64,000 bases of DNA from assembly GCF_025061645.1 (NCBI RefSeq), contig NZ_JANYMP010000007.1, positions 292,383 to 356,382 on the forward strand, in the 5' to 3' direction. Positions 35,546 to 54,632 of this stretch are shown here, piece by piece (position 1 is the first letter of the stretch; every line of letters starts with the position of its first letter). The notes under the pieces were generated by a model that was not told where the DNA came from, searched no databases, and saw nothing but the letters and a program-made list of their open reading frames with translations. Position numbers and translations under genes: made by a program. This stretch comes from Umezawaea endophytica. GTDB taxonomy: Bacteria; Actinomycetota; Actinomycetes; Mycobacteriales; Pseudonocardiaceae.

Positions 35546-36727
35546 CTACCCGCCCATCCTCGCCTCGATCAGGTCCGCCGCCCGCGCCGTGCCGCCCGAT
35601 TCCCGCACCCGGTCGCGCATCCAGCGGACCTTGGCCGCCGTCCGTTCGTCCGCGGCCAGGTCCAGTACCGCGTGGCGCAGGGCGTCCGGGGTGATGGTCG
35701 ACAGCTCGACGACGCGGCCGAGGCCGAGTTCGACGACCTGCCTGGCGTCCATGTCCTGTTCGGCGACCTCCGGGGCGAGCAGGAGCGGGGTGCCCTGCTG
35801 GACGGCGGACATGACGCCGCCGAGACCGCCGTTGGAGAGGAACACGGTGGCGTGTTCGAGCACGGCGACCTGGGGGATCCAGGGGTGGACCTCGAAGTTG
35901 GGGGGCAGCTCGCCGAGGTCGGCGTCCGCCCAGCCGCCGAGGGTGACGACGACGTGCCAGTCGAGGTCGGCGAAGGCGGTGGCGAAGAGGCGGAAGAAGT
36001 CGGGACGGGCGTTGTGGACGGTGCCCAGCGAGATGAAGAGGACGGGGCGGTCGGGGGTCGGGGGGTTCCAGTCGCCCTGGAAGATCGTGCCGTCGTTGCA
36101 CGGGCCGACGAAGGCGTAGTGGTCGCTGAAGGACTCGCCCTGGGGCTGGAAATCACGGGGGACGAAGACGAGGGCGAGGTCGTCCGGTTGGTGGAGCAGG
36201 GTTTCGTCGATGCCGTGCTGGACGAACAGGTCTTGCAGACCGGATTCGACGGCGGCCGCCTCGGCGCCTCGCGGACCGGCGAGGAGTTCGGCGCGGCGGG
36301 GCGCGGTCCAGTCGACGGTGTCGTTGAACGCGAGGTTCGGGTGGGTCAGGATGATCGGGACCGTCCACTTGCGACCGAGCACCGCGGCCGCGCCGTACAT
36401 CATGGGGTCGAAGACGATCAGGTCCGGGGCGTGCTCGACGAGGGCTTCGACGCCGTCGACGCAGCGCAGGCCCTCCTCGTAGAAGCGCATGCAGGCCAGC
36501 ACGATCTCGGCGGTGTCGGCGTGGTCGCTCACAGCCGCCGGGATGGCGGCGAGCGACGGGCCGTAGACGAGGGGGTCGACGCCGGAGAGCTGGGCGTACT
36601 CGACGAACGGCTCGGTGGTGGCGTAGCTGACCCGGTGGCCGCGCTTGGCGAGCGCCTCGGCGATGGTGAGCGTCGGGAACACGTGGCCGAAGGCCGGAGC
36701 GCTGAGGAACAGGACGTGCTTGGGCAT
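35546..36727 (-). CDS. MGT-type glycosyltransferase of the NRPS cluster
   Basis: A 393-residue GT1 family enzyme related to macrolide glycosyltransferases. The N-terminal acceptor domain begins HVLFLSAPAFGHVFPTLTIA; the nucleotide-sugar domain has VLFISLGTVHNARPDFF, PWIPQVAVLEHATVFLSNGG and APEVAEQDMDARQVVELGLG. The usual histidine of the HxGxGG phosphate-binding motif is asparagine here (SNGGLGG), an odd change that may lower or alter donor use. Start ATG 36727. It is eight bases downstream of the aminotransferase and reads with it from the P450 promoter. It probably attaches a sugar to the peptide product. Confidence 0.88.
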   Translation of the reverse strand: MPKHVLFLSAPAFGHVFPTLTIAEALAKRGHRVSYATTEPFVEYAQLSGVDPLVYGPSLAAIPAAVSDHADTAEIVLACMRFYEEGLRCVDGVEALVEHAPDLIVFDPMMYGAAAVLGRKWTVPIILTHPNLAFNDTVDWTAPRRAELLAGPRGAEAAAVESGLQDLFVQHGIDETLLHQPDDLALVFVPRDFQPQGESFSDHYAFVGPCNDGTIFQGDWNPPTPDRPVLFISLGTVHNARPDFFRLFATAFADLDWHVVVTLGGWADADLGELPPNFEVHPWIPQVAVLEHATVFLSNGGLGGVMSAVQQGTPLLLAPEVAEQDMDARQVVELGLGRVVELSTITPDALRHAVLDLAADERTAAKVRWMRDRVRESGGTARAADLIEARMGG

Positions 36728-36735
36728 GGTTCTCC

Positions 36736-37986
36736 TCACGTGAGAGCGGCGTGCACCTTCCGCACGGCCGTGGCGATGTCGTCGACGTCGGCGTCGGTGT
36801 AGTTCTCGTTCCAGAACAGGACCAGCAGCGTGGTGGCGAGCAGCCGTTCGGCAACCGGGCAGAGGCCGGGGCCGTAGCTCCAGTCCTTCCTGGACGGTGG
36901 GCTGGACAGCGGGAACGTGGAGTTGCCGTAGATCCGGCCGTTCGCGAGCACCGGCGAGGCGTAGGCGGGGTGGTCGAACAGCCTGCCCTCGGCGAGAATT
37001 CCCTCGGCCCGCAGCGCGGACGCCCAGCGCAGGTTAGTGCCGCCCGCCAGCGCCGGGTCGAGCACCAGCGGGAACGACCAGAAGCTGTGGCCGGTCTCCT
37101 CGGGCAGACCGACGCCGGGCAGACCGCGCAACGACTCCGCCAACCGGCGCGCGGTGCGCCTGCGGCGCTCGACCACGTCGCCGAGCCGCCCGAGCTGCGC
37201 CTTGGCGACCGCGCCCTGCAACTCGGTCATCCGGTAGTTCATCCCGAACGACAGGTGCGTGCGGGCCGCCGTGTCGCGCGGCCGTCCCTTGTCGCCGAAC
37301 AGCCGCAACCGACGCGCCAGGACGGGGTCGTCGGTGATGGCCAGCCCGCCCTCCCCGCAGGTGATGTGCTTGTACTGCTGGAGGCTGAAGCAGCCGACGT
37401 CGCCGACCGTGCCCGCGAGCCGTCCGGGCGCGGGTTCGGTGAGCAGCGCCTGCGCGCAGTCCTCGATCAGCATGATCCCGTGCCCGCGGGCGATCTCCGC
37501 CAACTCGACCACGGGCGCGGGCGCGCCGAGCAGGTGCACGGCCACGATCGCGCGGGTCCGCGGGGACAGGCAGCGCTCCACGCTCCGCGGGCACAGGTTG
37601 CCGGTCAGCGGGTCGACGTCGGCGAACACCGGCACCGCGTTCTGCGCCAGGATCGCGATGATCGTGCCGAAGTCGGTGACCGGCGTGGTGATCACCTCGT
37701 CGCCCGGATCCGGGTCGAGCGCGCCGATCGCCATGTGCAGCGCGGCCGTGCCCGAGCTGCAGGCCACCGCCTGGCCGACGCCGTGCAGCCGGGCCACGTC
37801 CGACTCCAGCCCGGCGACGTGCGAGCCGCCGAGCGCGTTGAGCCTGCCGCTGGTCAGCACCTCCCGCACCGCGGCGCTCTCCTCCTCGCCGAACGTGCGC
37901 CCCGCCGCCCCGGTCGCCACCGGGAACGGCCGGGTGCGCACCGGGGTCCCGCCGTGCAGGGCCAGCCCGTCGAGGGTGCTGGTCAC
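36736..37986 (-). CDS. DegT/DnrJ/EryC1-type aminotransferase
   Basis: A 416-residue PLP enzyme of the sugar/cyclitol aminotransferase family. Seen: VACSSGTAALHMAIGALDPD (cofactor phosphate loop), VIEDCAQ-like LIEDCAQALL with the PLP aspartate, CFSLQQYKHITCGEGG with the Schiff-base lysine, and GMNYRMTELQGAVAKAQL, which is diagnostic. Such enzymes aminate keto-sugars for antibiotic sugars or scyllo-inosose. Start GTG 37986 overlaps the P450 stop (GTGA), and the glycosyltransferase follows eight bases later. An amino-sugar or aminocyclitol in the product is suggested; no dehydratase or nucleotidyltransferase for making such a sugar is in the window. Confidence 0.92.
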   Translation of the reverse strand: MTSTLDGLALHGGTPVRTRPFPVATGAAGRTFGEEESAAVREVLTSGRLNALGGSHVAGLESDVARLHGVGQAVACSSGTAALHMAIGALDPDPGDEVITTPVTDFGTIIAILAQNAVPVFADVDPLTGNLCPRSVERCLSPRTRAIVAVHLLGAPAPVVELAEIARGHGIMLIEDCAQALLTEPAPGRLAGTVGDVGCFSLQQYKHITCGEGGLAITDDPVLARRLRLFGDKGRPRDTAARTHLSFGMNYRMTELQGAVAKAQLGRLGDVVERRRRTARRLAESLRGLPGVGLPEETGHSFWSFPLVLDPALAGGTNLRWASALRAEGILAEGRLFDHPAYASPVLANGRIYGNSTFPLSSPPSRKDWSYGPGLCPVAERLLATTLLVLFWNENYTDADVDDIATAVRKVHAALT

Positions 37987-39164
37987 CCGACGTCCCAGGT
38001 GACCGGGAGGCTGTGGGTGCCGTAGACGACCATCGTCTCCCGCAGCGGGACCTCCGCCGCCGGTACGGCGAGCCGCAGCGTCGGGAACCGGCGCAGCAGC
38101 GCGGTGAGCCCGATCCGCAGCTCCGCACGGGCCAGTTGCAGACCGGTGCACAGGTGCGCGCCGCCGCCGAACGACACGTGCCCGGCCGCCGAACGGGACA
38201 GGTCCAGCACGTCGGGGTCCGGGAACCGCACGGGGTCGCGGTTGGCCGCGGCCAGCGACATCGTGACGGACTCCCCCGCCTTCACCAGCGTGCCCGCGAC
38301 CTCGACGTCCTCGACCGCCGTGCGCACCGGTCCGATGTGGCTGACCGTGAGGTAGCGCAGCAGCTCCTCGACGGCGCTGTCGACCAGCGCCGGGTCGGCG
38401 CGCAGCGCGGCGAGCTGCTCGGGGTGCTCCAGCAGCGCGAACACGCCGAGGGTCAGCGTGTTCGACGTCGTCTCGTGGCCCGCCATCAGCAGGATCATCG
38501 CGACGGTGACCAGCTCGCCGTCGTCCAGCTCACCGCTCGCGACGAGCCTGCCGAGCACGTCGTCGGTGGGCTGGTCGTGCTTGGCCCTGATGGCGGTGCT
38601 CAGGAAGTCGATCATCGACACCCAGGAGGCGACGGTGTCCTCCTCCGACGCGCTCAGGTCGAACAGCGTGTCGGAGTCGTGCTGGAACCGGTCGTGCTCG
38701 GCGTAGGGCAGGCCGAGCACCTCGCACATCAGCAGCGACGGCAGCGGCAGCGCGTAGGAGCGCAGCAGGTCGACCACCGGGCCCTGGCGCTCCATGTCGT
38801 CGAGCAGCGACTCGGCGATCTGCTCGATCCGCGGCGCCAGCTCGTTCGCCCGCCGCAGGGTGAACTCCGACGTGAGCAGCTTGCGGTACTTGGTGTGCTC
38901 CGGCGGGTCGAGCCGGGTGAACATGCCGGGCAGCACCTCGGGGATCTCCACCCGGTCCATGGCGAGCGTCGGCCGCACCAGGTCCGCGCGGTGGCTGAAC
39001 CGGGGGTCGGTGAGCACCGTGCGGACGGCGGCGTAGCCGGTGGCGATCCAGCCGAGGTGCCCGTCGGGGAAGGAGAACCGGCTGATCGGCGCGGCTTCCC
39101 GCGCCCGGCCCAGTTCCTCCGGCGGGTCGAACGGACAACTGCGCGCGGTCGGGATCGACCGCAT
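37983..39164 (-). CDS. Cytochrome P450
   Basis: A 393-residue soluble bacterial P450. The heme-binding loop reads VSFGGGAHLCTGLQLARAEL with the axial cysteine near residue 339; the I-helix has LLMAGHETTSNTL, the K-helix EELLRY, and the early RLDPPEHTKYRKLL is conserved. Start ATG 39164 has GGGAG four bases upstream; a GTG six codons earlier is possible. First gene of the P450-aminotransferase-glycosyltransferase operon, with a 45-bp cluster-shared element 167-211 bases upstream. It probably hydroxylates the peptide or a building block. Confidence 0.93.
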   Translation of the reverse strand: MRSIPTARSCPFDPPEELGRAREAAPISRFSFPDGHLGWIATGYAAVRTVLTDPRFSHRADLVRPTLAMDRVEIPEVLPGMFTRLDPPEHTKYRKLLTSEFTLRRANELAPRIEQIAESLLDDMERQGPVVDLLRSYALPLPSLLMCEVLGLPYAEHDRFQHDSDTLFDLSASEEDTVASWVSMIDFLSTAIRAKHDQPTDDVLGRLVASGELDDGELVTVAMILLMAGHETTSNTLTLGVFALLEHPEQLAALRADPALVDSAVEELLRYLTVSHIGPVRTAVEDVEVAGTLVKAGESVTMSLAAANRDPVRFPDPDVLDLSRSAAGHVSFGGGAHLCTGLQLARAELRIGLTALLRRFPTLRLAVPAAEVPLRETMVVYGTHSLPVTWDVG

Positions 39165-39330
39165 TGTGCTCCCGGTTTCCACAGCAGATCACTCCAAGGC
39201 ATTCGCCGAAGTCGCAAGGGGAAATGCGGGACATTCCCACCGCATCGACGGAGATGCTGGCACACCTTCGAGCGAACCCGCAACGACCTCCTCGTACCCA
39301 TTCCCGTCGAATTCGCAGTCTTTTTGTTCC

Positions 39331-39375
39331 GACTTTGTCGTTCAACGCCAAGAGCTCGACGTCGTACAACGTTCC
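39331..39375 (-). promoter_or_regulatory. Cluster-shared 45-bp element, copy upstream of P450 operon
   Basis: Read on the minus strand, it holds CGTTGTACGAC and, 24 bases on, CGTTGAACGAC. The whole 45 bases align without gaps to 42989-43033 with 31 identities. It lies in the 214-bp gap between the WD40 gene and the P450 gene. Confidence 0.65.
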
Positions 39376-39378
39376 GTG

Positions 39379-42300
39379 TTAGGGAGTCGGACCGGAACAC
39401 GCCGCGGGCGGCGCTCCCCCGTCGTGGAAGTCCCGCGCCAGCGCCCGGCACAGCTCGCCGAGCGCGGCCTGGACGTCGGTGGTCCACGGCGTCACGGTCA
39501 GGTCCCGGCTCGCGCTGGCCAGCGTGCCGTCCGGGCTCCACGCCAGGTCGGTCACCGGCCCGGTGTGCCCGGACAGCACCGCCCACCGGGTGAGCGTGGC
39601 GGCGTCGAGCAGGGTCACCGTGTCGTCGTGGTCGAAGGTCGCGATGAGCCGTCCGTCGGGGCTGTAGGAGAGGAGGCTGAACCGGCCGCCGGGGTCGGTC
39701 AGCTCCCCGGTCCGCCGGTGGGTCGCGGCGTCCCAGAGCACGACCCGCCCGGCGCCGTCGTGGTAGGTGGTGGCGGCCAGGACCGTCCCGTCGGGGCTGA
39801 ACACGACGGTCGACGCGTGCCCGTCCTCGGCCACGACGACCTCGTCGCCGGTCTCGGTGTCCCAGACCAGGACCCGACCGCGCTCGGTCGCGACGGCCAG
39901 TGACCGGCCGTTCGGGCTGTAGCTGACGTCCAGCGCCCCGTCGCCGTCCACGGCCCGGTCGCGGTGGCTCCCGGTCGCGATGTCGACGAACCGCACGGTC
40001 CTGGCGTCCACGATCAGGGCCAGCGTCCGCGAGTCCGGGCTGAACACCGCCTTCTCCACCACGTGCCCGTCGAGCACCACCCCGACCTCGGCCAGCGTGG
40101 CGGCGTCGCGCAGCACCACCCTGCCCCCGTAGCCCGCGACCACCCACCGCCCGTCCGGGCTCACCCACGGTCCGCGCGTCTCCAGCGACGATGTCCCGCC
40201 GCCCGGCGCGGACGCCAGCGGGGCGCGGGTCTCGCGGTCCCAGACCAGCAGCGACCCGTCCGCGCTGCCGCTCACGACGTTGCCGCCGACCGGGTCGAAC
40301 GCGACCCCGCTGACCGTGTCGACGTGCCCGGTGAACGGGACGCGGGTGCGGTCCCAGAGCAGGAAGCCGGACTTGCTGCTGCCCGCGATGAACCGGCCGT
40401 CCGGGCTGGACACCGCGCCGCCGACGCCGTGGTTCTTGTTCCGCAGGAGCTGGCCGACGCGGGCCCGGCGGGCCAGGTCCCAGACGGCCACGGTGCCGCC
40501 GATGTCGACCGAGAACAGCCGTCCGCCGGTCGGGTCGAACTCGGCCTGGGCGACGCTGTCCACGTGGTCGAGGTCGGCCACCCGCTGCCGGGTGCCCACG
40601 TCCCACAACCGCACCGACCGGCCCGCGCCTGCCGTGGCGATCGTGCGGCCGTCCGGGCTGAACGCCACCGAGGTCAGCAGCCCCTCCGGTGAGGGCAGGG
40701 TGCCGACGGCGCTGCCCGTGCGCAGGTCCCACAGCACGACCCCGCCGCCGTCGGTGAACGCCAGCGTCGTGCCGTCCGGGCTGAACGCGAGCGAGCCGGA
40801 TCCCGCGCCGGTGCCCGGAGTGGTCACCGGGCGGGCGTCGCGGGTGTCGAGCAGCCGGGTCGCACCCGCGTCCGCCACCGCCACCGCCCGGCCGTCGGGG
40901 CTGAACCGCAGCTCGCGGACCGGGTCGGTGGAGGACGCGCCGCGCGCCACCAGCGAGCGGTCGGCCAGCCTCCAGATCAGCACCTCGCCGTCCTCGGTGC
41001 CCGCGGCGACCAGGGTGCCGTCCACGCTGACCGCGACCACCAGCACCTGGCCGAACGAGCCGGTCAGCTCGTCGCGGCGGGTGCGCTCGGCGACGTCCCA
41101 GAGGTCGACGTGCCCCGGTCCGCCGGGAGCGGCGAGCAGGTGGCCGTCGGGCGTGAACGCCGGTTTCGTGCGCACGTCCGACGGCGAGGGCAGCAGCGCC
41201 TGGTAGTCACGCCGCGACGCGAGGCTGAGCACCTCGCTGCGCGCCTCGACCGTGGGGTAGCTCTGGTAGGCGTCCAGGCTCGCGCGCATCGCGCGGGCGA
41301 CGTCCTTGCCCGCCAGCGTCTCCGCCTCGGCCGCGAGTTGCCGCGAGGTGCTGACCAGGCCTTCGCTGATGGCGTCCTGGCGTTGCCGGACGGCCACGAC
41401 CGTGACGGCGACGGCCACCACGAGCAGCGCGGACAGCGCCGTGGTGAGCCAGCGCAACTGCCGGTTGCGGCGCTGGCGCAGCGCCTGGTCGAGCGCCTCG
41501 GCGTGCCTGCTGGAGTCGAGGAACGACCGCTCGTGCGCGGTCATGTCGTCCTCGTGCCGCTTGGCCCAGTCGCCGGTGACCGCGAGCCGGACGCCCCGGT
41601 AGAGCGCGCCGGGGTCGCGCCGCACGGCCTCCCAGGCTGCGGTGGCCTCGGTGAGGCCCCGGTGGACGCGGATGTCGGCGCGGTCCTCGGCCAGCCAGTC
41701 GCGCAGCCGCGGCCACGAGCGGATCAGGGCCTCGTGCGCGATCTCGACGGAGTCCTTGTCCAGCACCACGAGCCGGGCACCGGCCAGCGCGTCCAGCACG
41801 GCGGCGGTGTCCGGGTCGTCGTCCAGCTCGCCGCACGGCACCCGGCGGCGGGTGTCCTCGTTGCCCTCGCCGAGGGTGATCAGGCGCAGCAGGATCTGCC
41901 GGGCACGCCGCTGCCTGCCGGGATCGAGCGCCGTGTAGACGTGCTCGGCGGTCTGGGCGATGGCGCCGTGGATGCCGCCGGACGCCTCGTAGCCGGCCAC
42001 GGTCAGGGCGTTGCCGCGCCGCCGCCGCCAGGTCTCCAGCAGGGCGTGCGACACCAGCGGCAGCATCCCGGCCTGACCGGTCGCGTCGGCGACGAGCTTG
42101 GCCAGCAGCGGCCCCTCGACGGTGCACCCGGCCTGGACGGCGGGTTTGATGATCGCCCGCGGCAGCTCGTCGCTGCTCATCGGACCGACCGCGACCTGCG
42201 CTTCGGCCAACGCGCGAGCCAGGCCCGCGTGGGCGGCGCAGCGGTGGTAGAAGTCGGCCCGGATGCCCACCACGACCCGGCGCGACCCGATGTCGGACTC

Positions 42301-42954
42301 CGCCTCGGCCAGCAGCGCGTCGATGAACCGGGTGCGCTCGGACTCGTCGCGGCAGAGGGTGAACACCTCCTCGAACTGGTCGACCACCACCACGAGTTCG
42401 TCGCCGGGCGGGTGTTCGTCGAGCAGCCGCGCCAGCTCGCGCAGGGGCCGGGCGCCGGGCGTGAACAGGACGGCCCGCAGCCCCGGCAGCAGCCCGGCCC
42501 GCAGCAGCGACGACTTGCCCGCGCCGGACACGCCGAGCACGCCCACGAACCGGTGGTCGGCCAGCCGGGCGCGCACCTCCTCGACGAGCCGTTCGCGGCC
42601 GAAGAAGCGGGCGCTGTCCTCGGGCTGGAACGCCGCCAGCCCCACGTACGGCGAGGCCGCGTCGCCGTCGCCCGGCTCCTCCTCGGCGCTCAGCCGGGCG
42701 GCGAGGGCGTGCCAGCGGGCCTCCCACTCGACGGGGTCGCCGCCGCACGCGCGGACGTAGGCGAGCGTCACCGCGAGCACGGGCAGCTTCCGGCCCCCGG
42801 CGGCGTCGGACAGGGTCGCGGCCGAGTAGTGCGCGACCACGGCCAATTCCCGATAAGGCGGGCTCCCGGCTTTCTCCCGGACCTCGCGCAAATCGGCGGC
42901 GAATCTCAACAACGGGCTGTCGCCCACATCCAATGGGCGTTCACGACGTGGCAT
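39379..42954 (-). CDS. HTH-nSTAND1 ATPase-WD40 repeat protein
   Basis: A 1191-residue protein. Residues 1-95 form an HTH-like domain (FAADLREVREKAGSPPYREL; HYSAATLSDAAGGRKLP). About 101-450 is the nSTAND1 NTPase: SPYVGLAAFQPEDSARFFGR, Walker A GVSGAGKSS (141-149) and Walker B VVVVDQFEE. A membrane helix (TTALSALLVVAVAVTVVAVR) lies near 496-520. From about 595 to the end are roughly 14 WD40 blades (FSPDGxxLAxxxxDGxVxLWD pattern). Start ATG 42954 has GGGGA eight bases upstream. It is divergent from the NRPS, with the shared 45-bp element between them. A membrane-anchored sensor or regulator of the cluster is plausible, not proven. Confidence 0.9.
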   Translation of the reverse strand: MPRRERPLDVGDSPLLRFAADLREVREKAGSPPYRELAVVAHYSAATLSDAAGGRKLPVLAVTLAYVRACGGDPVEWEARWHALAARLSAEEEPGDGDAASPYVGLAAFQPEDSARFFGRERLVEEVRARLADHRFVGVLGVSGAGKSSLLRAGLLPGLRAVLFTPGARPLRELARLLDEHPPGDELVVVVDQFEEVFTLCRDESERTRFIDALLAEAESDIGSRRVVVGIRADFYHRCAAHAGLARALAEAQVAVGPMSSDELPRAIIKPAVQAGCTVEGPLLAKLVADATGQAGMLPLVSHALLETWRRRRGNALTVAGYEASGGIHGAIAQTAEHVYTALDPGRQRRARQILLRLITLGEGNEDTRRRVPCGELDDDPDTAAVLDALAGARLVVLDKDSVEIAHEALIRSWPRLRDWLAEDRADIRVHRGLTEATAAWEAVRRDPGALYRGVRLAVTGDWAKRHEDDMTAHERSFLDSSRHAEALDQALRQRRNRQLRWLTTALSALLVVAVAVTVVAVRQRQDAISEGLVSTSRQLAAEAETLAGKDVARAMRASLDAYQSYPTVEARSEVLSLASRRDYQALLPSPSDVRTKPAFTPDGHLLAAPGGPGHVDLWDVAERTRRDELTGSFGQVLVVAVSVDGTLVAAGTEDGEVLIWRLADRSLVARGASSTDPVRELRFSPDGRAVAVADAGATRLLDTRDARPVTTPGTGAGSGSLAFSPDGTTLAFTDGGGVVLWDLRTGSAVGTLPSPEGLLTSVAFSPDGRTIATAGAGRSVRLWDVGTRQRVADLDHVDSVAQAEFDPTGGRLFSVDIGGTVAVWDLARRARVGQLLRNKNHGVGGAVSSPDGRFIAGSSKSGFLLWDRTRVPFTGHVDTVSGVAFDPVGGNVVSGSADGSLLVWDRETRAPLASAPGGGTSSLETRGPWVSPDGRWVVAGYGGRVVLRDAATLAEVGVVLDGHVVEKAVFSPDSRTLALIVDARTVRFVDIATGSHRDRAVDGDGALDVSYSPNGRSLAVATERGRVLVWDTETGDEVVVAEDGHASTVVFSPDGTVLAATTYHDGAGRVVLWDAATHRRTGELTDPGGRFSLLSYSPDGRLIATFDHDDTVTLLDAATLTRWAVLSGHTGPVTDLAWSPDGTLASASRDLTVTPWTTDVQAALGELCRALARDFHDGGAPPAACSGPTP

Positions 42955-42988
42955 GTGCACCATCCCCAGATTTCGCGCCCATTGTCCA

Positions 42989-43033
42989 GACGTTGTCGTA
43001 CAGCGTCCAGGCACCGACATCGAACAACGAATC
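42989..43033 (-). promoter_or_regulatory. Cluster-shared 45-bp element, copy in WD40 / NRPS promoter
   Basis: On the minus strand it reads CGTTGTTCGAT and, 24 bases on, CGCTGTACGAC, with the same spacing as the copy at 39331-39375. It lies 35 bases upstream of the WD40 start and 51 upstream of the NRPS start, so one protein could control both directions. Confidence 0.65.
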
Positions 43034-46000: not shown

Positions 46001-49000
46001 TCCGCGCCGAGGCCGCCGCGCGGGGTCTGCACTTCAGCCTGTCCGACCTGGTCGGACATCCGACCGTGGCCGCGCTGGCCACGAAGGTCACCGCGGGCGA
46101 GGACGTCGTCGCGCTCGCGCCGTTCGACCTCGTCCCCGCCGTGGACCGGGCCGGGCTGGCCGAGGCCGTGGACGCCCATCCCGTCACGGCGTTGCAGCTC
46201 GGCCTGCTCTACCACAGCCGCGCGCACGAGAAGTCCGCCGTGTACCACGACGTCTTCCGGTACACGCTGGGAATCCGCTGGCACGAGGCGGAGTTCCGCC
46301 GGGCGTTCGCCGCGCTGGTCGGCAGGCACCCGGTGCTGCGGTCGTCGTTCGACCTGACCGGGACGCCGTTGCAGGTCGTCCGCGCCGAGGTCGACGGCGG
46401 GCTGGACGTCGTGGACCTGCGGGCGGTCGACCCCGCCGAGGCCGAGGTGGAGGTGCGCAAGCACATCGAGGACCGGCGGTACCACGACTACGAGTTCGAC
46501 CGGCCGCCGCTGTACCTGTTCCGCGCGCACGTGCTCACCGACGGCCGGGTGGACCTGGTGCTGAGCTTCCACCACGCTGTCCTGGACGGCTGGAGCGTGG
46601 CGAGCCTGGTGCGCGAACTGCTCCAGGACCACCTGCACGCCACCGGGGCGGGCATCGGGCCGGTGACCGACGTCCCGCCGTCGACGGCCGCGCGGCACGT
46701 CCTCGACGAACGCCGGGCGCTCGGCTCGGAGGAGTCGCGGCGGCACTGGCGGCGGCTGCTGGAGGGCACCACGCCCGCGCTGCCGACCGGGTTCGGCCCG
46801 CACGCGGCGCCCGGTGGCCGCGACCTCGTCGTGCGCTCGACCGCGCTGCCCACCGGTCTCGACGCCCGGCTGCGCGGGTTCGCCCGCGAGCACGCCGTCC
46901 CGGTGAAGTCGGTGCTGTTCGCCGCGCACTGCCTGGTGCTGCGGATGTTCTGCGGGCAGGACGCCCTGGTGACCGGGTTGGTCACCCACACCCGGCCGGA
47001 GGAGGCGGGCTCGGACCGCGCCGCGGGCCTGTTCCTCAACACGCTCCCGGTGCGCGTCGACGGCACGCCCGGCACGTGGCTGGACGTCGTGCGCGAGGTG
47101 CGCGGGCAGGAGGTCTCGGGGCACCCGCACCGGCACTTCCCGATCAGCGAGATCCGGCGCGACCACGGCGGGCCGGTGCTGGAGACCGCGTTCAACCACG
47201 TGCACCTGCACGTCGTCGAGCCGGTGCTGGCGCTGCCGGAGGTGGAGCTGCTCGGGTTCGAGGTGTGGGAGGAGACGAACTTCGCGCTGGTGGTCACCGC
47301 GTTCGTCGACCCCATTAACGCCCGCGTCCGGGTGCGGGTCGACTGCGAGGCGCCGCGGTTCACCCCCGACCAGGCCGAACTGCTGCTCCGCGCGTACACC
47401 GACCTGCTCACCAGGGTCGTCGACCGGCCGGACGAGCCGGTCGACTTCGGCTTTCTGTCCACCGAGGAGCCGCCGGACGTCGTGCGCGAGTTCGAACGGC
47501 GGGTGGCGCTGGCACCCGACACGACCGCGCTGTCCTTCGGCGACGACACCTGGACCTACCGCGAGCTGGACCGGGCGGCGAACCGGGTGGCGCGCCACCT
47601 GGCGGCGCTGGGCGCCCCGCGCGGGGCGCGGATCGGCGTGGCGATGGACCGGTCGTTCGAGATGATCGCCGTGCTGCTGGGGATCGCGAAGTCCGGCGGC
47701 GCGTGCGTGCCGCTCGACACCGGCTACCCCGCGGCCCGGATCGCCGCGGTGCTGGAGGACGTCCGGCCGTTCCGGGTGATCGTCCACGAAGGACACACCG
47801 GCCTGGTCGCCGACACCGCGGTCGTGCTCGACCCCGAGGAGTTGCTGACGGGTGACGGGGAGCCGGTGGCACTGGGGGTGTCACCGGAGGACGCCGCCTA
47901 CGTGCTCTTCACCTCGGGGTCGACCGGCACGCCGAACGGGGTGGTGATGCCGCACCGGGCGCTGGCGAACCTGGTGGCGGGCCAGAACCGCTCCGCGACC
48001 GGGGTCGTCGGCGGCCGGACGCTCCAGTACGCGCCGATCGGGTTCGACGTGTCGTTCCAGGAGATCTTCTCCACGCTCTGCGGCGGCGGCACGCTGGTGC
48101 TGGTGTCCGATGTGGATCGACGCGACCCGGTGTCGTTGCTGCGGCTGGTGGACGGCGCGGGGGTCGAGCGGATCTTCCTGCCGTACGTGGCGCTCCAGCA
48201 GCTCGCCGAGGCCGCGGACGCGCTCGGGCGGGCACCGCGCGCGCTGCGGGCGGTGATCTCCTCCGGCGAGCAGTTGCGGGTAACCGACGAGATCCGGCGG
48301 TTCTGCGCGTCCGTGCCGGGTCTGCTGCTGGAGAACCAGTACGGGCCGACCGAGACGCACGTCGCGACCACGTACACCATGTCCGGCGACCCCGCGGACT
48401 TCCCGGCGCTGCCCCCGATCGGCAGGCCGTTCGACGGGCTGCGGGTGCGACTGCTGGACGAGCTGTCGAGGCCGGTCCCGGTCGGCGTGCGCGGGGAGAT
48501 CCACATCGGCGGCGCGGGCCTGGCCACCGGCTACCACGACCGGCCGGAGCTGACGGCCGACCGGTTCGCGCACGTCGACGGCGAACGCCTGTACCGCACC
48601 GGCGACCTCGGGGTGCGGCTGCCCGACGGCGACCTGGTCTGCCTCGGGCGCCGGGACGCCCAGCTCAAGATCCGCGGCTACCGGGTCGAGCCCGCCGAGG
48701 TGGAGCTGGCGATCTGCGCGCTCGGGTTCCACGAGGTGGCCGTGGTGGCGCGGCAGGAGAACGGCGAGGCGCGGCTGGTGGCGTTCCTCGTCGGCGAACC
48801 GGGCGACGCCGAGGAGCTCCGGGCCGCGGTGCGCGCGGTGCTGCCGGAACACCTGGTGCCGACGCGCTTCCAGTGGCTGCCGAGCCTGCCGTGGACGCCG
48901 AGCGGGAAGCGCGACGACGCGGCGCTGCGGCGGATCGCGCCGACGGCGGCGGTCGCCACCGTGTCCGCGCCACCGCGCGACGAGCACGAACGGGCGCTGG

Positions 49001-50034
49001 TCGAGGTGCTGGCCGAGCTGATCGGGGTGCCGGGGCTGGGCGTGCACGACGACTTCTTCGCGCTGGGCGGCACGTCGCTGACGGCGATGCGGCTGGTCGT
49101 GGTGCTGGAGAAGCGCTACGGCGTGCACATCCCGCTGTCGGCTTTCGTCGCTGCCCCGACGGTCGCGGAGTTGGCCAGGCGCTTGCGGTCCGACCACGCC
49201 ACCGCGCGCTTCGACCCGCTGGTGCCGATCCGCGAGCACGGGACCCGGCCGCCGGTGTTCCTCGTGCACCCGATCGGCGGGAACGTCCTGTGCTACCTGC
49301 CGCTGGCCCGGCACCTGCCCGGTGACCGACCGCTCTACGCGTTGCAGGCGGCCGGGAGCGAGCCCGGCACCGAGCCGCTGCGCGTCGTCCGGGACCTCGC
49401 CCGCTCCTACCTCGACGCGGTGCGCCGCGTGCGCCCCACCGGGCCGTACCTGATCGCGGGCTGGTCGTTCGGCGGGTTCGTGGCCGTGGAGATGGCCCGG
49501 CTGATCCGCGAGGAGGGCGACGAGGTCGAACGGCTGGTGCTGATCGACACCATCGCCCTGGCCGCGGGACCGCGCGACGAGGTGTCCGACGACGTGCTGC
49601 TGACCTGGTTCCTGTGGGAGCTGCTGCGCGGCGACGAGGTCCCCCGGCTGCCCGGCGGCGACCGGTTCGAGCACGCCGCCCGGCTGGCGATCGACGCCGG
49701 GGTGCTGCCGCCGGGCAGCCCCGCGGCCGTGGTGCGGCGGCTGTTCGGGGTGTTCGCGGCGAACTGGCGCGCGGTGCTGGACTACCGGCCGGACGTGCTG
49801 ACCGAGGACGTCGCGCTGATCCGCGCCACCGCTCCCCTGCCCGGCCTGCTCGAACCGGCGCACGACGCCGCCCGCAGCCTGCACCGCGACCCGGCAAACG
49901 GGTGGGGCGGACTGGTCGGCGGCCGCCTGGACGTCGTAGACGTGCCCGGTGACCACCTGGAGATGATGGAGGAACCCCACGTGCGCGCAGTCGCGAACGC
50001 GCTGTCCGAACTCCTCGATGGCGAGGACCGGTGA
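43084..50034 (+). CDS. Two-module nonribosomal peptide synthetase (C-A-T-C-A-T-TE)
   Basis: A 2316-residue synthetase. C1 (8-430) has HHVVADG near 132. A1 (450-930) has YTSGSTGRPKG and SFDVSVWELFW; lined up by eye with EntF its code reads D-V-W-H-F-S-L-V-D, the serine code. T1 has LGGDSILSLR (serine near 967). C2 has HHAVLDG near 1162. A2 (1475-1960) has FTSGSTGTPNG (lysine to asparagine) and code D-V-Q-F-I-S-Q-V-A, nearest to proline-type codes but uncertain. T2 has LGGTSLTAMR. The thioesterase has GWSFGG near 2126. Starting with C1 implies an acyl or peptidyl donor from elsewhere. AGGGG lies before GTG 43084. No MbtH or PPTase gene is in the window. Confidence 0.96.
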   Translation: MTRSARFPLTAAQRDIWAAASRLPHLAQHNSVALDRLTGDVDVAVLRTCLARALDRNDALRLRFDEHDGVPYQWPDPEPAPAEVVELADRETCDAWIDAVFHRPFPLRGGPVVRAALLVEGTAAVHVCIAAHHVVADGWALHQALTQVVDDYAHVVRTGEPLDLPVRSYLPFVDRECRYRESADFEADRDFYRGFLAGVDPVLFPRKAMSGARATARHRFVLPGELIDRIRAGGHSPFTAVTAAFAAYLARVHGADEVVLGVPSLNRRTFADKQTVGQFASTMPLRLPVPGDRTLRDLATEVRTRTYGLKRRDRLSMGDLLRALPAGSPRGLFDVTVSYMRYPGRAAIPGVARDMAGVGHSHDQDALAVVLTEFDDTADVVVDLDYACDVFDADFPIEAMARHVYALLDNGLTDPEPRLAALPMLTAAEHARLVSADAPTVPVSDRTLHELIAEQVAREPGRVAVVGDSPMTYAELDVRADRVAAGLRANGVGPDDRVAVLLRRGRPLLVALLGILKAGAAYVPLDRGYPEDRLRFMLADSGAKVLLVDGPTSLEGPLVRQVDDLTGHSDAVATDPDGLAYVIYTSGSTGRPKGVAVEHRSVVNRLEWMQRRYPIDERDVLLQKTPVSFDVSVWELFWWALTGARLALPAAGAEKDPAEVLRAIGRHGVTVAHFVPSMLGPFLDEVEARPELAASLRRVFSSGEALSPALVERFYRVLDGAQLVNLYGPTEATVDVSFHDCVPGPRVPIGRAIDNMRLYVLDRHGSPQPAGAPGELCVSGVGVARGYLDRPELTAARFVPDPFAPGRRMYRTGDVARWLADGSLEYLGREDGQVKVRGNRVELGEVRDRLASCPGVRDAVVVDRPAAHGVRLVGYYVADREVDGVREHLAKALPDFMVPAHLVRIDRIPLTPNGKADRAALPDPTRQYVDAPPTTAVEAALAAVWAEVLGVPTVGVHTDYAALGGDSILSLRIRAEAAARGLHFSLSDLVGHPTVAALATKVTAGEDVVALAPFDLVPAVDRAGLAEAVDAHPVTALQLGLLYHSRAHEKSAVYHDVFRYTLGIRWHEAEFRRAFAALVGRHPVLRSSFDLTGTPLQVVRAEVDGGLDVVDLRAVDPAEAEVEVRKHIEDRRYHDYEFDRPPLYLFRAHVLTDGRVDLVLSFHHAVLDGWSVASLVRELLQDHLHATGAGIGPVTDVPPSTAARHVLDERRALGSEESRRHWRRLLEGTTPALPTGFGPHAAPGGRDLVVRSTALPTGLDARLRGFAREHAVPVKSVLFAAHCLVLRMFCGQDALVTGLVTHTRPEEAGSDRAAGLFLNTLPVRVDGTPGTWLDVVREVRGQEVSGHPHRHFPISEIRRDHGGPVLETAFNHVHLHVVEPVLALPEVELLGFEVWEETNFALVVTAFVDPINARVRVRVDCEAPRFTPDQAELLLRAYTDLLTRVVDRPDEPVDFGFLSTEEPPDVVREFERRVALAPDTTALSFGDDTWTYRELDRAANRVARHLAALGAPRGARIGVAMDRSFEMIAVLLGIAKSGGACVPLDTGYPAARIAAVLEDVRPFRVIVHEGHTGLVADTAVVLDPEELLTGDGEPVALGVSPEDAAYVLFTSGSTGTPNGVVMPHRALANLVAGQNRSATGVVGGRTLQYAPIGFDVSFQEIFSTLCGGGTLVLVSDVDRRDPVSLLRLVDGAGVERIFLPYVALQQLAEAADALGRAPRALRAVISSGEQLRVTDEIRRFCASVPGLLLENQYGPTETHVATTYTMSGDPADFPALPPIGRPFDGLRVRLLDELSRPVPVGVRGEIHIGGAGLATGYHDRPELTADRFAHVDGERLYRTGDLGVRLPDGDLVCLGRRDAQLKIRGYRVEPAEVELAICALGFHEVAVVARQENGEARLVAFLVGEPGDAEELRAAVRAVLPEHLVPTRFQWLPSLPWTPSGKRDDAALRRIAPTAAVATVSAPPRDEHERALVEVLAELIGVPGLGVHDDFFALGGTSLTAMRLVVVLEKRYGVHIPLSAFVAAPTVAELARRLRSDHATARFDPLVPIREHGTRPPVFLVHPIGGNVLCYLPLARHLPGDRPLYALQAAGSEPGTEPLRVVRDLARSYLDAVRRVRPTGPYLIAGWSFGGFVAVEMARLIREEGDEVERLVLIDTIALAAGPRDEVSDDVLLTWFLWELLRGDEVPRLPGGDRFEHAARLAIDAGVLPPGSPAAVVRRLFGVFAANWRAVLDYRPDVLTEDVALIRATAPLPGLLEPAHDAARSLHRDPANGWGGLVGGRLDVVDVPGDHLEMMEEPHVRAVANALSELLDGEDR

Positions 50035-51182
50035 CCAAGGCGATCGTCGTCGGCGCGGGCATCGGCGGACTGGTCACCGCCGTCGCCCTGCGCCGCGTCG
50101 GCGTCGAGGTCGAGGTGTACGAGCGGGCGAGCGAACCGCGGGTTTCGGGCACCGGGCTGTCGATCATGAGCAACGCCGTCGCGGCGCTGCGCGGGCACGG
50201 CATCGAGCTGGCGCTGGAGGACCGCGGCCGGGCCATCGAGACGTTCCACCTCAACACCTTCGACGGCCGTCCGATCAGGGCGGTGCCGGTGAAGTCGATC
50301 GGTGAGCGGCTCGGCGCGCCGAGCGTGTGCGTGCACCGGGCCGATCTCCAGGCCGCGCTGCTGGAGGCCGCAGGCGACTGCCCGATCGAGGTCGGGGCCG
50401 AGGCGACCGGCTACACCGCCGACGGCGACGGGGTGCGGGTGGACTTCGCCGACGGCCGGACGGCCCGCGGCGACGTGCTGATCGGGGCGGACGGGTTCCA
50501 CTCGGCGGTGCGCGGGCAACTCGTCGGGCCGGAGACCCCGCGGGACGCCGGGTACCTGTGCTGGCTGGCCACCGTCCCGTTCCGGCACCGAGCGCTGCCC
50601 GCCGGGCACGTGGGGCACTACTGGGGGCGCGGCAGCCGGTTCGGGCTCGTCGACATCGGGCACGGCCGCGTCTACTGGTGGGGCACCAGCGACGTCCCCG
50701 TGTGGGACGGCGGCAAGGAGCAGGTCCTGCGCGCCTACGACGGGTGGGCGGAGGAGGTGCGGGCCGCCATCGCGGCCACGCCCGCCGACGCGATCGTCGG
50801 GCTGGCCGCGCGCGACCGGCCGTTCCTGCGCAGGTGGGGCGACGGGCCGGTGACCCTGCTCGGCGACGCCGCGCACCCGATGCTGACCAGCCTCGGCCAG
50901 GGCGCCGGCATGGCCGTCGAGGACGGCGTCGTACTCGCGCGCTGCCTCGCCGGGACCGCGGACCCGCGGCGGGCGCTGCGCCGCTACGAGGACGAGCGGC
51001 GGGCGCGCACCCGGCAGGTGGTCAGGGCCTCCCGCGCGCTGAGCCGGTTCGAGCAGGCCGGGCCGCCGGGGGCGCGGCTCGTGCGCGACACGTCGTTCCG
51101 GTGGATGCCGGAACCGCTGCTGCGCAGGCTGAACGAGTCCGCCCTGACCTTTCCCGCCACGACAGGAACGAGGAACACGTGA
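50031..51182 (+). CDS. FAD-dependent monooxygenase (group A)
   Basis: A 383-residue single-component flavoprotein hydroxylase. Seen: IVVGAGIGGLVTAVALRRVG (FAD ADP-binding fold), the mid-protein DVLIGADGFHSAVRGQLVG (DG motif for NAD(P)H and FAD) and TLLGDAAHPMLTSLGQGAGM (GD motif). The type resembles 6-hydroxynicotinate and zeaxanthin-epoxidase-like hydroxylases, which oxidise aromatic rings or alkenes. Its GTG start overlaps the NRPS stop (GTGA), and its stop overlaps the next start, so it is made together with the NRPS and should tailor the product or a precursor. Confidence 0.93.
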   Translation: MTKAIVVGAGIGGLVTAVALRRVGVEVEVYERASEPRVSGTGLSIMSNAVAALRGHGIELALEDRGRAIETFHLNTFDGRPIRAVPVKSIGERLGAPSVCVHRADLQAALLEAAGDCPIEVGAEATGYTADGDGVRVDFADGRTARGDVLIGADGFHSAVRGQLVGPETPRDAGYLCWLATVPFRHRALPAGHVGHYWGRGSRFGLVDIGHGRVYWWGTSDVPVWDGGKEQVLRAYDGWAEEVRAAIAATPADAIVGLAARDRPFLRRWGDGPVTLLGDAAHPMLTSLGQGAGMAVEDGVVLARCLAGTADPRRALRRYEDERRARTRQVVRASRALSRFEQAGPPGARLVRDTSFRWMPEPLLRRLNESALTFPATTGTRNT

Positions 51183-52489
51183 CCGAGGTCAACCGGCCGC
51201 TGAGCCCGGTCGAGCGGTGGTACTGGCTCGCCGACCGGTTCTCGCCCCTCAACGTCGTCGCCCGCGTCCGGGTGCGGGGAAGTCTCGACCCGCGGGCGGT
51301 CCGAATAGGACTCGACGCGCTGCAAAGCAGGCATCCGTTGCTGCGCACCACGATCGTCGCCGACGCGGCCGACGCGAACCCGGAGTTCGTCGCCACTACG
51401 GGGATCCCGATCCCGCTGCGGGTCGTCGACCGCGACACGAGCTGGGAGCACGAGGTCGACGAGCACGAGCTGGTCGACCGCGTGGACGCGGTCGCCGGTC
51501 CGCTGTGCCGCGCGGTCGTGCTGCGCCACGGCGACGACGTGCAGGACGTGCTGCTCACCGTGTCGCACACCATCTCCGACGCGGTCACCGCGCTGTCGCT
51601 GCTGCGGGAACTGCTGGAGTTCGCCGCACGGCCGGGGTCCGCGGTCCCGCTGGACCCGCTGCCCGCGCCGGAGGACCTGTTCCCCGCCCGGCACCGGGCG
51701 CTGGGCGGTGCGCTGGGCATCGCCCAGCGCGTGCTGCCTGACCAGCGGAAGCTGAGGCGCGCCGCGCTGCGCCGCCTGGTGCCCAGCGCGGCGGTGCCCG
51801 ACGAGCGGCGGCGGTCGCGGTTCGTCCACCGGGCGCTGGACTTCGCCCAGCTCGACGCGCTGTCGCGGTCGTGCAAGCGGGAGGGCGCGACGGTGCAAGG
51901 CGCGCTGGCCGCGGCGATGATCACCGCGGTCGCGCGGGACGCGGAGGTGGCCGAGCGGTGCGAGTTCGCGATCGGCTCCCCCGTCGACTTCCGCGACGAG
52001 CTGGCGCGGCCGGTGTCGGACCGCGACGTCGGCGCGTACATCGCGACCGTGCCCTCCTTCGTCGACTTCCGACCGGGAGCCCCGTTCTGGCCCATGGCCA
52101 AGACCGTCAGCGAGGACGTGGCCCGGCGCAAGCGGCGCGGGGACCACTTCGCGGTCATCAACCTGCTGCGCTGGGTCTGCCCGCACGACCTCGCCGGGAG
52201 CGCCTCGTTCCGCGGGCTGGTCGAGGCGCAGGGACCGGGAAACCTGTGCCTGTCCAACATCGGCCTCCACCACTTCCCCGACGTGATCGGGCCGTGGCGG
52301 CTGTCGGAAGCGCAGTTCGTGGCGGGCCCCTCCCTCAGCGGGTACCTCGTGGGGACCGTCAACACCAGCCACGACCAGCTCTCGTGGAACTTCTCCTACG
52401 TCGACGACGCCGTGCCGACCGACCGCGCGGAGCGGATCGCCACCGACAGCGTCGACGTCCTGCTCGCGGCCATCGGGAAGGCGTCATGA
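51179..52489 (+). CDS. Condensation-fold acyltransferase (PapA/alcohol acyltransferase-like)
   Basis: A 436-residue stand-alone member of the CoA-dependent acyltransferase/condensation superfamily. N-terminal LSPVERWYWLADRFSPLNVV and ALQSRHPLLRTTIVAD fit PapA-type enzymes. The active-site motif reads VSHTISDAVTALSLL: the second histidine of HHxxxDG is kept, the first is serine and the glycine is alanine. It also has SPVDFRDELARPVSD and LCLSNIGLHHFPDVIG (SNxG motif). It likely esterifies or amidates the peptide with an acyl-CoA or releases it from the carrier. It overlaps both neighbours by four bases. Confidence 0.85.
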   Translation: MTEVNRPLSPVERWYWLADRFSPLNVVARVRVRGSLDPRAVRIGLDALQSRHPLLRTTIVADAADANPEFVATTGIPIPLRVVDRDTSWEHEVDEHELVDRVDAVAGPLCRAVVLRHGDDVQDVLLTVSHTISDAVTALSLLRELLEFAARPGSAVPLDPLPAPEDLFPARHRALGGALGIAQRVLPDQRKLRRAALRRLVPSAAVPDERRRSRFVHRALDFAQLDALSRSCKREGATVQGALAAAMITAVARDAEVAERCEFAIGSPVDFRDELARPVSDRDVGAYIATVPSFVDFRPGAPFWPMAKTVSEDVARRKRRGDHFAVINLLRWVCPHDLAGSASFRGLVEAQGPGNLCLSNIGLHHFPDVIGPWRLSEAQFVAGPSLSGYLVGTVNTSHDQLSWNFSYVDDAVPTDRAERIATDSVDVLLAAIGKAS

Positions 52490-53349
52490 GGATCTCACCG
52501 GACGACCGGACGGTCGTCGTCACCGGAGCGTCGTCCGGGCTCGGCAAGGCGTGCGCCCTGCACCTGGACCGGCTCGGCTACCGGGTGTTCGCCGGCGTGC
52601 GCCGGGACACCGACGGCGACGCGCTGGTCGCCGCCTCGACCTCCGGCGGGCTCAGGCCGCTCGTGCTGGACGTGACCGACCCGGCGGCCGTGCAGGCGGC
52701 GGTGAAGACCGTCGGCGGCGGGCTGTGGGGGCTGGTCAACAACGCGGGCGTGTGCGTGCCCGGACCGCTGGAATGCCTGTCGCCGCAACGGCTGCGCGAC
52801 CAGTTGGAGACCAACGTGGTGGGCGCGGCGACCGTGACGAGCGCGTTCCTGCCGCTGCTGCGCGAAGCTCGCGGGCGGATCGTCAACGTCAGCTCCGGCC
52901 TCGGCCGGATCGCCTCGCCCTTCCTCGGCGCGTACGCGGCGTCGCAGTTCGCGAAGGAAGGGCTCAGCGACGCCCTGCGGCGTGAACTGCGGCCGTTCGG
53001 CGTGGCGGTGGCGGTCGTGCAGCCCGGCGCGATCATGACGCCCATCTGGACCAAGCTCGCCGCCCAGGGCGACGACCTGCTGGACACCGCCGACGCGGGC
53101 GTCGCCGACCTCTACCGCGCACCGTTCCGGCACTTCCTGGCCGCCAACGACGAGCGCGCCCGGCGGAGCGGGACCGTGCCCGACGACTTCGCCAGGACCG
53201 TGGCGCGCGCGTTGGCGGCACGGCGGCCGAAGTCCCGCTACCAGGTCGGCCCGGACGCCCGCGCGGGCGCCGTGCTGTACCGGCTGCTGCCCGATTCACT
53301 GCTCGACCTCGTGTTCGCCAAAGCCGCGTCCCCCGGAGGCCACCGATGA
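52486..53349 (+). CDS. SDR oxidoreductase with altered catalytic lysine
   Basis: A 287-residue SDR of the retinol dehydrogenase/17-beta-HSD-like type. TGASSGLGKACALHLDRLGY is the NAD(P) site, VNNAGV and NVSSGLG are intact. The active site is YAASQFAKEGLSD: the lysine of YxxxK is glutamine (codon CAG at 52937-52939). The arginines in GVRRDTDGD suggest NADPH. Coupled by ATGA overlaps to the acyltransferase and P450. Loss of the lysine may leave a weak, altered or purely binding function. It could reduce a ketone in the peptide if another residue compensates. Confidence 0.87.
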   Translation: MRISPDDRTVVVTGASSGLGKACALHLDRLGYRVFAGVRRDTDGDALVAASTSGGLRPLVLDVTDPAAVQAAVKTVGGGLWGLVNNAGVCVPGPLECLSPQRLRDQLETNVVGAATVTSAFLPLLREARGRIVNVSSGLGRIASPFLGAYAASQFAKEGLSDALRRELRPFGVAVAVVQPGAIMTPIWTKLAAQGDDLLDTADAGVADLYRAPFRHFLAANDERARRSGTVPDDFARTVARALAARRPKSRYQVGPDARAGAVLYRLLPDSLLDLVFAKAASPGGHR

Positions 53350-54632
53350 CCACGTCGTTCGCGCAGTCCCTGCGCCTGCGCACCATGCTGCTGGGGTTCA
53401 AGGCCGTGACCAGGCCGCTGGCGTGGCGCGGTGACCCGATGGCGCGGATCCTCACCGCGGGCCGCGACACCGACCCCTACCCGTTCTACGAGGACGCCAG
53501 GGCGCTCGGGGACCTCAGCCGCAGCGGGCTGGGTTTGTACGTGTCGGCGTCGCACCGGGTCAGCGACTCCGTGCTGCGCGACCCGCGGTTCGGCGTGGAC
53601 ACGCGGGCGTCGCTGATGGACATGAAGAAGATGCTGCTCGACAGCAAGGGCAGGCGGCCGATCCACCCGGTCGACGACTCGTTCATCGCCCTGGACCCGC
53701 CCCGGCACACCCGGCTGCGCCGCACCGTGGCGCCGTGGTTCACCCCGCGCGCGCTGCGCGACCTGACGCCGCTGGTGGAGAAGGTCGTCGGGGAGTTCCT
53801 CGACGAGGTCGAGGGCCGCGACCAGTGGGAGCTGATGGACGACTTCGCCGCCCGCATCCCCATCCGGATCATCTGCGAGATGTTCGGCATCCCCGAGATC
53901 GACTACGCCCGGTTCATCCGCTGGGGCACCGTGCTCGGCGCGACCCTGGACGGCATCCGCTCGGCCGCCGAACTGGCCCGCGTCCGCGCCGCGCTGGTCG
54001 ACCTGGAGGCGTTCTTCGTCGACCTGCTCGACGGTCGGCGGCGCAACCTGGGCGACGACCTGGTCAGCAGCGTGATCAGGGCGCAGTCCGGGTCCGACGA
54101 GTTCCTCCGCGAGGACCTGCTGGCCACCTGCGAACTGCTGATGATGGCCGGGTACGAGACGACGCTGAACCTGATCGGCAACGCCGGGCTGGCCCTGCTC
54201 ACCCACCGCGAGGCGCGCGAGCGGGTGATCGCGTCGCCCTCGTCGGCGGACAACGCCGTCGAGGAGGTGCTGCGGTGGGACTCCTCGGTCCAGTACACCG
54301 TGCGCGCCGCGGTCGAACCCGTGACGCTGGAGGGCGTCGACCTGCCCACCGGCTCCCTCGTCGTGCTGCTACTCGCGGGCGCCAACCGCGACCCCGACGT
54401 CTTCCCCCACCCGGACGTCCTCGACCTCGACCGCCCCAACAGCCGTGACCACCTGTCGTTCTCCTCCGGGATCCACTACTGCGTCGGCGCGGGACTCGCG
54501 CGCCTGGAAGCCGCCGTGGGGATGCGGATGCTGTTCGAGAGGTACCCAGACCTGCGAATCAGCGGGCCCGTGGTGCGGCGCCGGTCGCGCAACATCCGGG
54601 GGGCGCTGAGCATCCCGGTGTCACCGCGGTGA
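53346..54632 (+). CDS. Cytochrome P450
   Basis: A 428-residue bacterial P450, last gene of the NRPS operon. The heme loop SFSSGIHYCVGAGLARLEAA has the axial cysteine near residue 379; the I-helix is LMMAGYETTLNLIG, with tyrosine in place of the more common histidine or glutamate. The K-helix is EEVLRWDSS, and ALDPPRHTRLRRTV is conserved. An N-terminal extension of about 35 residues (RTMLLGFKAVTRPLAWRG) resembles P450s acting on larger or carrier-bound substrates. The ATGA overlap with the SDR places it in the same transcript. It probably adds a hydroxyl or cross-link to the peptide. Confidence 0.93.
   Translation: MTTSFAQSLRLRTMLLGFKAVTRPLAWRGDPMARILTAGRDTDPYPFYEDARALGDLSRSGLGLYVSASHRVSDSVLRDPRFGVDTRASLMDMKKMLLDSKGRRPIHPVDDSFIALDPPRHTRLRRTVAPWFTPRALRDLTPLVEKVVGEFLDEVEGRDQWELMDDFAARIPIRIICEMFGIPEIDYARFIRWGTVLGATLDGIRSAAELARVRAALVDLEAFFVDLLDGRRRNLGDDLVSSVIRAQSGSDEFLREDLLATCELLMMAGYETTLNLIGNAGLALLTHREARERVIASPSSADNAVEEVLRWDSSVQYTVRAAVEPVTLEGVDLPTGSLVVLLLAGANRDPDVFPHPDVLDLDRPNSRDHLSFSSGIHYCVGAGLARLEAAVGMRMLFERYPDLRISGPVVRRRSRNIRGALSIPVSPR

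Follow-up and report, generated by a model that had tools for sequence, protein, structure and literature searches.

A nine-gene unit in Umezawaea endophytica, a probable decorated relative of the bacterial pyrrolizidine and bicyclic carbamate pathways

The stretch of Umezawaea endophytica DNA analysed here (the window, 64,000 nucleotides) covers positions 292383-356382 of contig C7 (NZ_JANYMP010000007.1), in a genome of 11.0 Mb with 73 condensation-domain matches. Between window positions 35546 and 54632 we found nine genes, all free of internal stop codons, which centre on a nonribosomal peptide synthetase (NRPS) with condensation (C), adenylation (A), thiolation (T) and thioesterase (TE) domains, a flavin monooxygenase (FMO) and a protein of the short-chain dehydrogenase/reductase (SDR) fold. 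The evidence for each assignment is given in brackets.

35546-36739, minus strand: MGT-family glycosyltransferase (GT) (Pfam, PDB, NCBIfam)
36736-37986, minus strand: DegT/DnrJ/EryC1/StrS aminotransferase (DegT), SLQQYKHITCGEGG (Pfam, PDB, NCBIfam)
37983-39182, minus strand: cytochrome P450 with haem motif FGGGAHLCTG and AGHETT (Pfam, NCBIfam, motifs)
39379-42963, minus strand: nSTAND1 NTPase with WD40 repeats, divergent from the NRPS gene at a distance of 120 bp (Pfam)
43084-50034, plus strand: bimodular NRPS, C-A-T-C-A-T-TE, 2316 amino acids (Pfam scan, A-domain codes, motifs)
50031-51182, plus strand: predicted LgnC-type Baeyer-Villiger FMO (H196, Y215, W216, W217; GAGIGG, GDAAH; clade)
51179-52489, plus strand: PapA/condensation-type acyltransferase, HTISDA (Pfam, NCBIfam, alignment)
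52486-53349, plus strand: SDR-fold protein with Y150-x3-Q154 replacing YxxxK (Pfam, alignment, PDB alignments)
53346-54632, plus strand: cytochrome P450 with haem motif FSSGIHYCVG and AGYETT (Pfam, NCBIfam, motifs)

Each adjacent pair of the five plus-strand genes overlaps by 4 bp, which suggests that they are translationally coupled. On the minus strand the DegT gene overlaps both the P450 and the GT gene by 4 bp and starts with GTG at 37986 (the codon at 37989 is CGG), and the nSTAND1-WD40 protein encoded beyond them is probably regulatory. To place the borders of the unit, the whole window was compared by blastn with stretches of three relatives (G022, G060 and G109, the last from another genus), with matches of at least 150 bases retained. 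The common DNA ran from approximately 35553 to 54632 and ended there, and outside it a single piece of 245 bases at 66.5% identity was shared. Identity of the unit to the window was 92% in G022, 86-92% in G060 and 72-81% in G109, and all nine genes stand in this layout in four genomes from two genera, the window's included. The region 35546-54632, which a sequence-only reading had delimited exactly so and taken for a single cluster, is thus supported as one cluster and a real unit. Flanking genes that G022 and G060 have in common, as judged by eye, are not present around the window's unit, and the 19.1-kb unit therefore sits in another place here. Relatives of the GT, DegT and nSTAND genes accompany 4 of the 56 distinct loci at which an NRPS adjoins a relative of the FMO (the family loci) and are absent from the remaining 52 as far as the DNA retrieved extends. 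The lack of the minus-strand operon from those 52 would suit two unrelated clusters that adjoin, one of them the NRPS operon and the other P450-DegT-GT, yet the layout persists between the same two end points in the other genus at 72-81% DNA identity, and we regard this arrangement as highly improbable.

The Pfam domain order C-A-T-C-A-T-TE bears out the two modules read earlier in the NRPS, and HHxxxDG is found in both C domains and GWSFGG in the TE. At the nine positions that we take to set A-domain specificity, the first module carries the code DVWHFSLVD, which is of serine type, and the second DVQFISQVA, which is proline-like. Across 55 aligned rows of the NRPS, of which 54 are distinct and from which L143 and L167, with their split match, were left out, the A1 code was of serine type throughout, with DVWHFSLVD in 52 and DVWHFSLID in 3, and A2 started with D[VMI]Q in all rows except that of L172 (54/55). 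The best PDB chains with a single A domain were Txo1/Txo2 (380/379 bits) and EntF (331 bits) for A1, the matched domains of EntF and Txo presumably using serine; for A2 they were TycB (9bfd_B, 280 bits), Txo2 (263 bits) and GrsB (8p5o_A, 255 bits), of which TycB and GrsB presumably use proline. The likely substrates of the NRPS are hence serine and proline or an analogue. The same domain order is reported for NRPSs of the PxaA/BraB type (PMC11177316) and for LgaD (PMC7820566).

The enzymes of the LgnC type carry the motifs GxGxxG, YWWxTKN and GDAAH, of which YWWxTKN has served as a probe for PCR (PMC7820566), and residues H200, Y219 and W221 of LgnC were reported to be important (PMC11457151). 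All three are kept in the window FMO as H196, Y215 and W217. We aligned 57 NRPS-linked FMO rows, the window's among them (56 are distinct, as L156 and L071 are one record, hence the separate counts of rows and of distinct loci), with 54 of the 57 remaining homologues, 3 non-linked loci being left out for their short matches, and with L174 (42-43% identity, no NRPS), which was grouped with the non-linked sequences. The letters H-Y-W-W occurred in 57/57 linked rows versus 0/55 other homologues. The FastTree phylogeny placed the 56 distinct linked FMOs on one side of a split and the other 55 sequences on the opposite side (support 1.0), identity to the window FMO being 50.4-88.7% within the linked clade and 27.9-41.7% outside it, and the FMOs of the four loci that belong to the subtype with a glycosyltransferase formed a clade (support 0.918). 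Among the 54 non-linked loci, 44 of which could be inspected over 15 kb or more, only L032 and L033 had weak A-domain-like matches nearby (24-31%). The association also held in Streptomyces: the FMO was detected at E<=1e-70 in 36 of 392 genomes (37 places), and an NRPS adjoined it in 36 of these places, the exception being L174, the most distant member, which does not have the HYWW letters. TKN was present in 37/57 linked rows, and since the other 20 deviate we treated YWWxTKN as frequent and not as defining. A DNA pattern search for YWWxTKN gave a match in 1 of 394 genomes of the class, the true member L095, and the exact pattern misses the window FMO.

We consider it very probable that the locus is a decorated member of the family that couples a bimodular NRPS to an LgnC-type Baeyer-Villiger monooxygenase and makes bacterial pyrrolizidines and bicyclic carbamates. 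Several points weigh against this assignment. The A2 code deviates at several positions from the usual proline codes, and Txo2 ranks between TycB and GrsB as the second-best single-A chain of A2. The window FMO reads YWWGTSD and so departs from the published YWWxTKN, and membership in the family is predicted from motif, residues, neighbours and clade, with LgnC, PxaB, BraC and AzeC compared by description only. The DegT and both P450s score below every NCBIfam cut-off, and neither an acyl-activating gene nor sugar-nucleotide genes were found within the nine-gene unit. Finally, no relative at E<=1e-60 was found in 369 genomes of the class of G1062, although gammaproteobacterial members are published, a result that shows nothing alone. 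The FMO also belongs to a broad hydroxylase superfamily (FAD_binding_3; its best NCBIfam match, HpxO, is far below cut-off), and this, like the deviating motif, would suit a product that is simply an acyl-Ser-Pro dipeptide or a diketopiperazine, the FMO serving as hydroxylase or N-oxygenase; its H-Y-W-W residues and its place in the clade argue the other way and leave that outcome with very little probability. The serine peptide predicted earlier keeps its first residue, on the A1 code and PDB matches, but not its peptide nature, as the proline-like module 2 together with an LgnC-type Baeyer-Villiger FMO leads us to expect a bicyclic Ser-Pro alkaloid core.

The pathway would be of the same type as those of the legonmycins, bohemamines, brabantamides and azetidomonamides. 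At the locus itself we observed the domain order, the A-domain codes, the active-site residues, the clade of the FMO and the conserved synteny, and the chemistry is extrapolated wholly from characterised relatives, by homology with PxaA/PxaB and BraB/BraC (PMC11177316) and with LgaD/LgaE (PMC7820566). C1 would acylate serine, and C2 would dehydrate it, in the way that LgnD-C2 dehydrates the residue on T1 (PMC11457151), and couple it to proline or an analogue. Release by the thioesterase would give a 5+6 acylamino-indolizidinone, which oxygen insertion by the FMO would expand to a 5+7 oxazepine carbamate, and this would either remain as such or contract to a 5+5 pyrrolizidine. Three proteins may act around the Baeyer-Villiger step, namely the PapA-type acyltransferase, the lysine-less SDR and the P450 at 53346-54632, and the P450-DegT-GT operon may either oxidise, aminate and glycosylate the product or make and attach its amino sugar. 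The most likely product is an acylated, oxidised and probably glycosylated bicyclic carbamate or pyrrolizidine, with which the acylation and oxidation proposed from the letters alone agree.

NRPS-FMO-acyltransferase-SDR cassettes recur across actinobacteria. The survey base of 56 distinct loci leaves out the S. rimosus remnant L021 and the short loci L108-L137, and within it PapA relatives were found at 33 loci, SDR relatives (at least 45% identity) at 41 and both at 30, with SDR matches of 34-36% in L169 and L170 excluded from the count. In L021 itself, near the contig start (5456-6776), a piece of the NRPS N-terminus is followed immediately, with a change of frame, by the C-terminal part of the FMO. 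The HxxxD of the PapA-type acyltransferase is kept. FMO and PapA share a single open frame in five distinct loci (L071, L142, L144, L152 and L158), and such fusion suggests that the two act jointly. In L071 the fusion (16857-19415) is annotated in the record as one coding sequence.

The description of the SDR as odd was apt, for glutamine occupies the position of the catalytic lysine. The protein keeps TGxSxGLG, NNAG, Ser and Tyr, the SDR fold and cofactor motifs are present, and in PDB alignments its glutamine lies opposite the lysine of DHRS9 and 17beta-HSD1. Among 44 aligned cluster SDR rows (41 loci, one duplicate record and two lone copies) YxxxQ was found in 43 and YxxxM in one (L173), with YxxxK in none, versus YxxxK in 14/15 and TxxxR in 1/15 of the background SDR-like stretches (<47% identity) of all loci. 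At E<=1e-60 the SDR occurred in 19 of 297 genomes of the bacterial family, in 20 places; of the 19 places inspected (G017 was left out), 17 had NRPS, FMO and PapA nearby and 2 (G066 and G130) did not. In these last two the YxxxQ copy (L081 and L082; 60-61% identity) stands alone, no NRPS being found in the DNA retrieved around it. A literature search that reached few subscription journals found, among the matches listed, no paper combining YXXXK with the product names of the family, and within the literature searched a cluster SDR with YxxxQ in place of the catalytic YxxxK appears to be new. A conserved component (41/56 loci) of a studied pathway is left without a role found for it in the accessible portions of the family literature. 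We put forward, as a decidedly speculative proposal that we hold to be improbable, that the lysine-less SDR is no ordinary reductase but works specifically with the Baeyer-Villiger enzyme, perhaps without redox chemistry, and that together with the acyltransferase, which at some loci is fused to this enzyme, it captures or directs the unstable 5+7 carbamate; the captured core would then be aminated and glycosylated in the four-genome subtype to give a class of sugar-bearing bicyclic carbamates. If so, the choice between carbamate and pyrrolizidine would be set by a testable protein.

Glycosylation of the product, which had also been proposed earlier, is plausible from the score of the GT, 346 bits against the TIGR01426 (MGT) cut-off of 260. 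The nearest PDB relative of the DegT protein is 8gyh, its PDB relatives being mixed. Two RmlB-type dehydratases score above cut-off elsewhere in the genome, and a dTDP-4-keto sugar is therefore probably available. The GT may alternatively be self-protective and inactivate the product as macrolide-type GTs do, the released compound then not being glycosylated. The TIGR01426 score is in keeping with this, as are the matches to the OleI and Mgt self-immunity and inactivation models (below their cut-offs), the presence of CalG4 and the oleandomycin GT among the closest PDB chains and the lack of a clpP copy at this locus to shield the host. The GT lies, however, in one overlapping operon with DegT and P450, as a tailoring set would, and in the brabantamide pathway the Baeyer-Villiger step comes first and the GT modifies the product late (PMC11177316), so that we judge self-protection unlikely. 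As to the P450 at 53346-54632, a role as glycosyltransferase activator was considered and rejected (TIGR04515, 249 bits against a cut-off of 343; haem-cysteine motif intact).

The family counts antibacterials and covalent inhibitors of ClpP among its members, whose discovery is held back by the unstable carbamate ring (PMC13386464). A subtype with a glycosyltransferase, an aminotransferase and two P450s may yield stabler or masked forms. One family cluster contains clpP, and its bicyclocarbamate metaze B modifies and inhibits ClpP (PMC13386464). We therefore also weighed a refinement of the family assignment in which the product is a ClpP-inhibiting bicyclic carbamate like clipibicyclene and metaze B, with the sugar masking or exporting it. 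With clpP places mapped in 21 and 36 genomes, the gene lay within approximately 10 kb of 11/56 family loci (L077, L083, L084, L086, L087, L011, L162, L169, L170, L171 and G109), which spread over four groups of the FMO tree and for this reason are not 11 independent events. This distribution and the covalent inhibition of ClpP by those published members whose clusters include clpP (PMC13386464) speak for the refinement. Against it, 45/56 loci, the window included, have no clpP near. The four clpP matches of this genome lie on contigs C2 and C3 and none beside the unit on C7, no clpP was found near the G060 locus or the first copy of G022, and the clpP near G109 is one of the two ordinary pairs of that genome, with no extra copy and with neighbours that look unrelated. 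We hold this refinement to be possible but doubtful, and ClpP as a target of the product of this locus is a hint, a lead and not a result. Besides its window-like copy, G022 has another cluster of this family, which lies next to clpP (L077, 5501-17104), and in L084 the interval from P450 to clpP holds open reading frames that by eye resemble a KSIII and an acyl-CoA dehydrogenase.

The gene set had been called unfamiliar and had not been recognised as a known pathway. This does not hold for the core, the Ser-Pro NRPS and LgnC-type FMO being known, but the full nine-gene layout has no published relative that we found. Among the closest known systems are the metaze and clipibicyclene clusters and the azetidomonamide/azabicyclene (aze) cluster of Pseudomonas aeruginosa. 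The aze cluster runs parallel in gene order, the feature compared, where NRPS-FMO-azeD-SDR-P450 corresponds to NRPS-FMO-PapA-SDR-P450 here; the reported order is azeA/clpP2, azeB (NRPS), azeC (FMO), azeD (hypothetical) and azeE (SDR) (PMC9040856), and PA3331 is named as a P450 (PMC10413270). The aze cluster has clpP2 (azeA), KSIII (azeH) and an acyl carrier protein gene according to the accessible descriptions, whereas the nine genes here include no clpP, KSIII, acyl carrier protein or azetidine synthase, and GT, DegT and nSTAND-WD40 do not appear in the accessible aze gene lists. A Pfam search of the nine proteins, to which it was confined, found no methyltransferase-like domain and thus no azetidine-2-carboxylate synthase of the AzeJ type. 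The bohemamine/legoncarbamate (lga) cluster of Streptomyces sp. CT37 shares the C-A-T-C-A-T-TE synthetase (LgaD), serine with proline or 5-methylproline and the LgnC-type LgaE (PMC7820566), and its tailoring consists of methylation and branched-chain acyl supply, no glycosylation being described in the accessible portion of that article. Brabantamide (BraA-BraB-BraC) shares the bimodular Ser-Pro NRPS, the Baeyer-Villiger enzyme and a glycosyltransferase, but its rhamnose is attached to the fatty acyl chain and its carbamate is rearranged, and no PapA, SDR, DegT or P450 is described in the accessible text (PMC11177316). Pyrrolizixenamide (PxaA-PxaB) and legonmycin (LgnA-D) follow the same NRPS logic with a homologous Baeyer-Villiger enzyme and, as accessibly described, no tailoring set; in legonmycin module 1 is split, and the pathway uses threonine and a type II thioesterase. 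The nine-gene subtype was not found in the accessible portions of the family literature, including PMC7820566, PMC11457151, PMC11177316, PMC13386464, PMC9040856 and PMC10413270, nor in those of PMC8748450, PMC9854587, PMC11794875, PMC12566167 and PMC9753991. As far as this literature extends, what is new is therefore the four-genome subtype with the P450-DegT-glycosyltransferase operon and the nSTAND-WD40 gene.

To the left of the unit, at 30130-32240, a Rieske oxygenase-like gene lies divergent from a flavin/ferredoxin-type reductase gene, and two TetR genes adjoin them. On the right, only the C-terminal domain of an LD-carboxypeptidase was matched by Pfam at 54672-55298, and the overlapping open reading frames 56127-57668 and 57578-58468 had no Pfam match. 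One open reading frame within 56127-58468 reads IHKSQG and by eye resembles relaxase helicases, and the two stretches 54672-55298 and 56127-58468 may be remnants of a mobile element.

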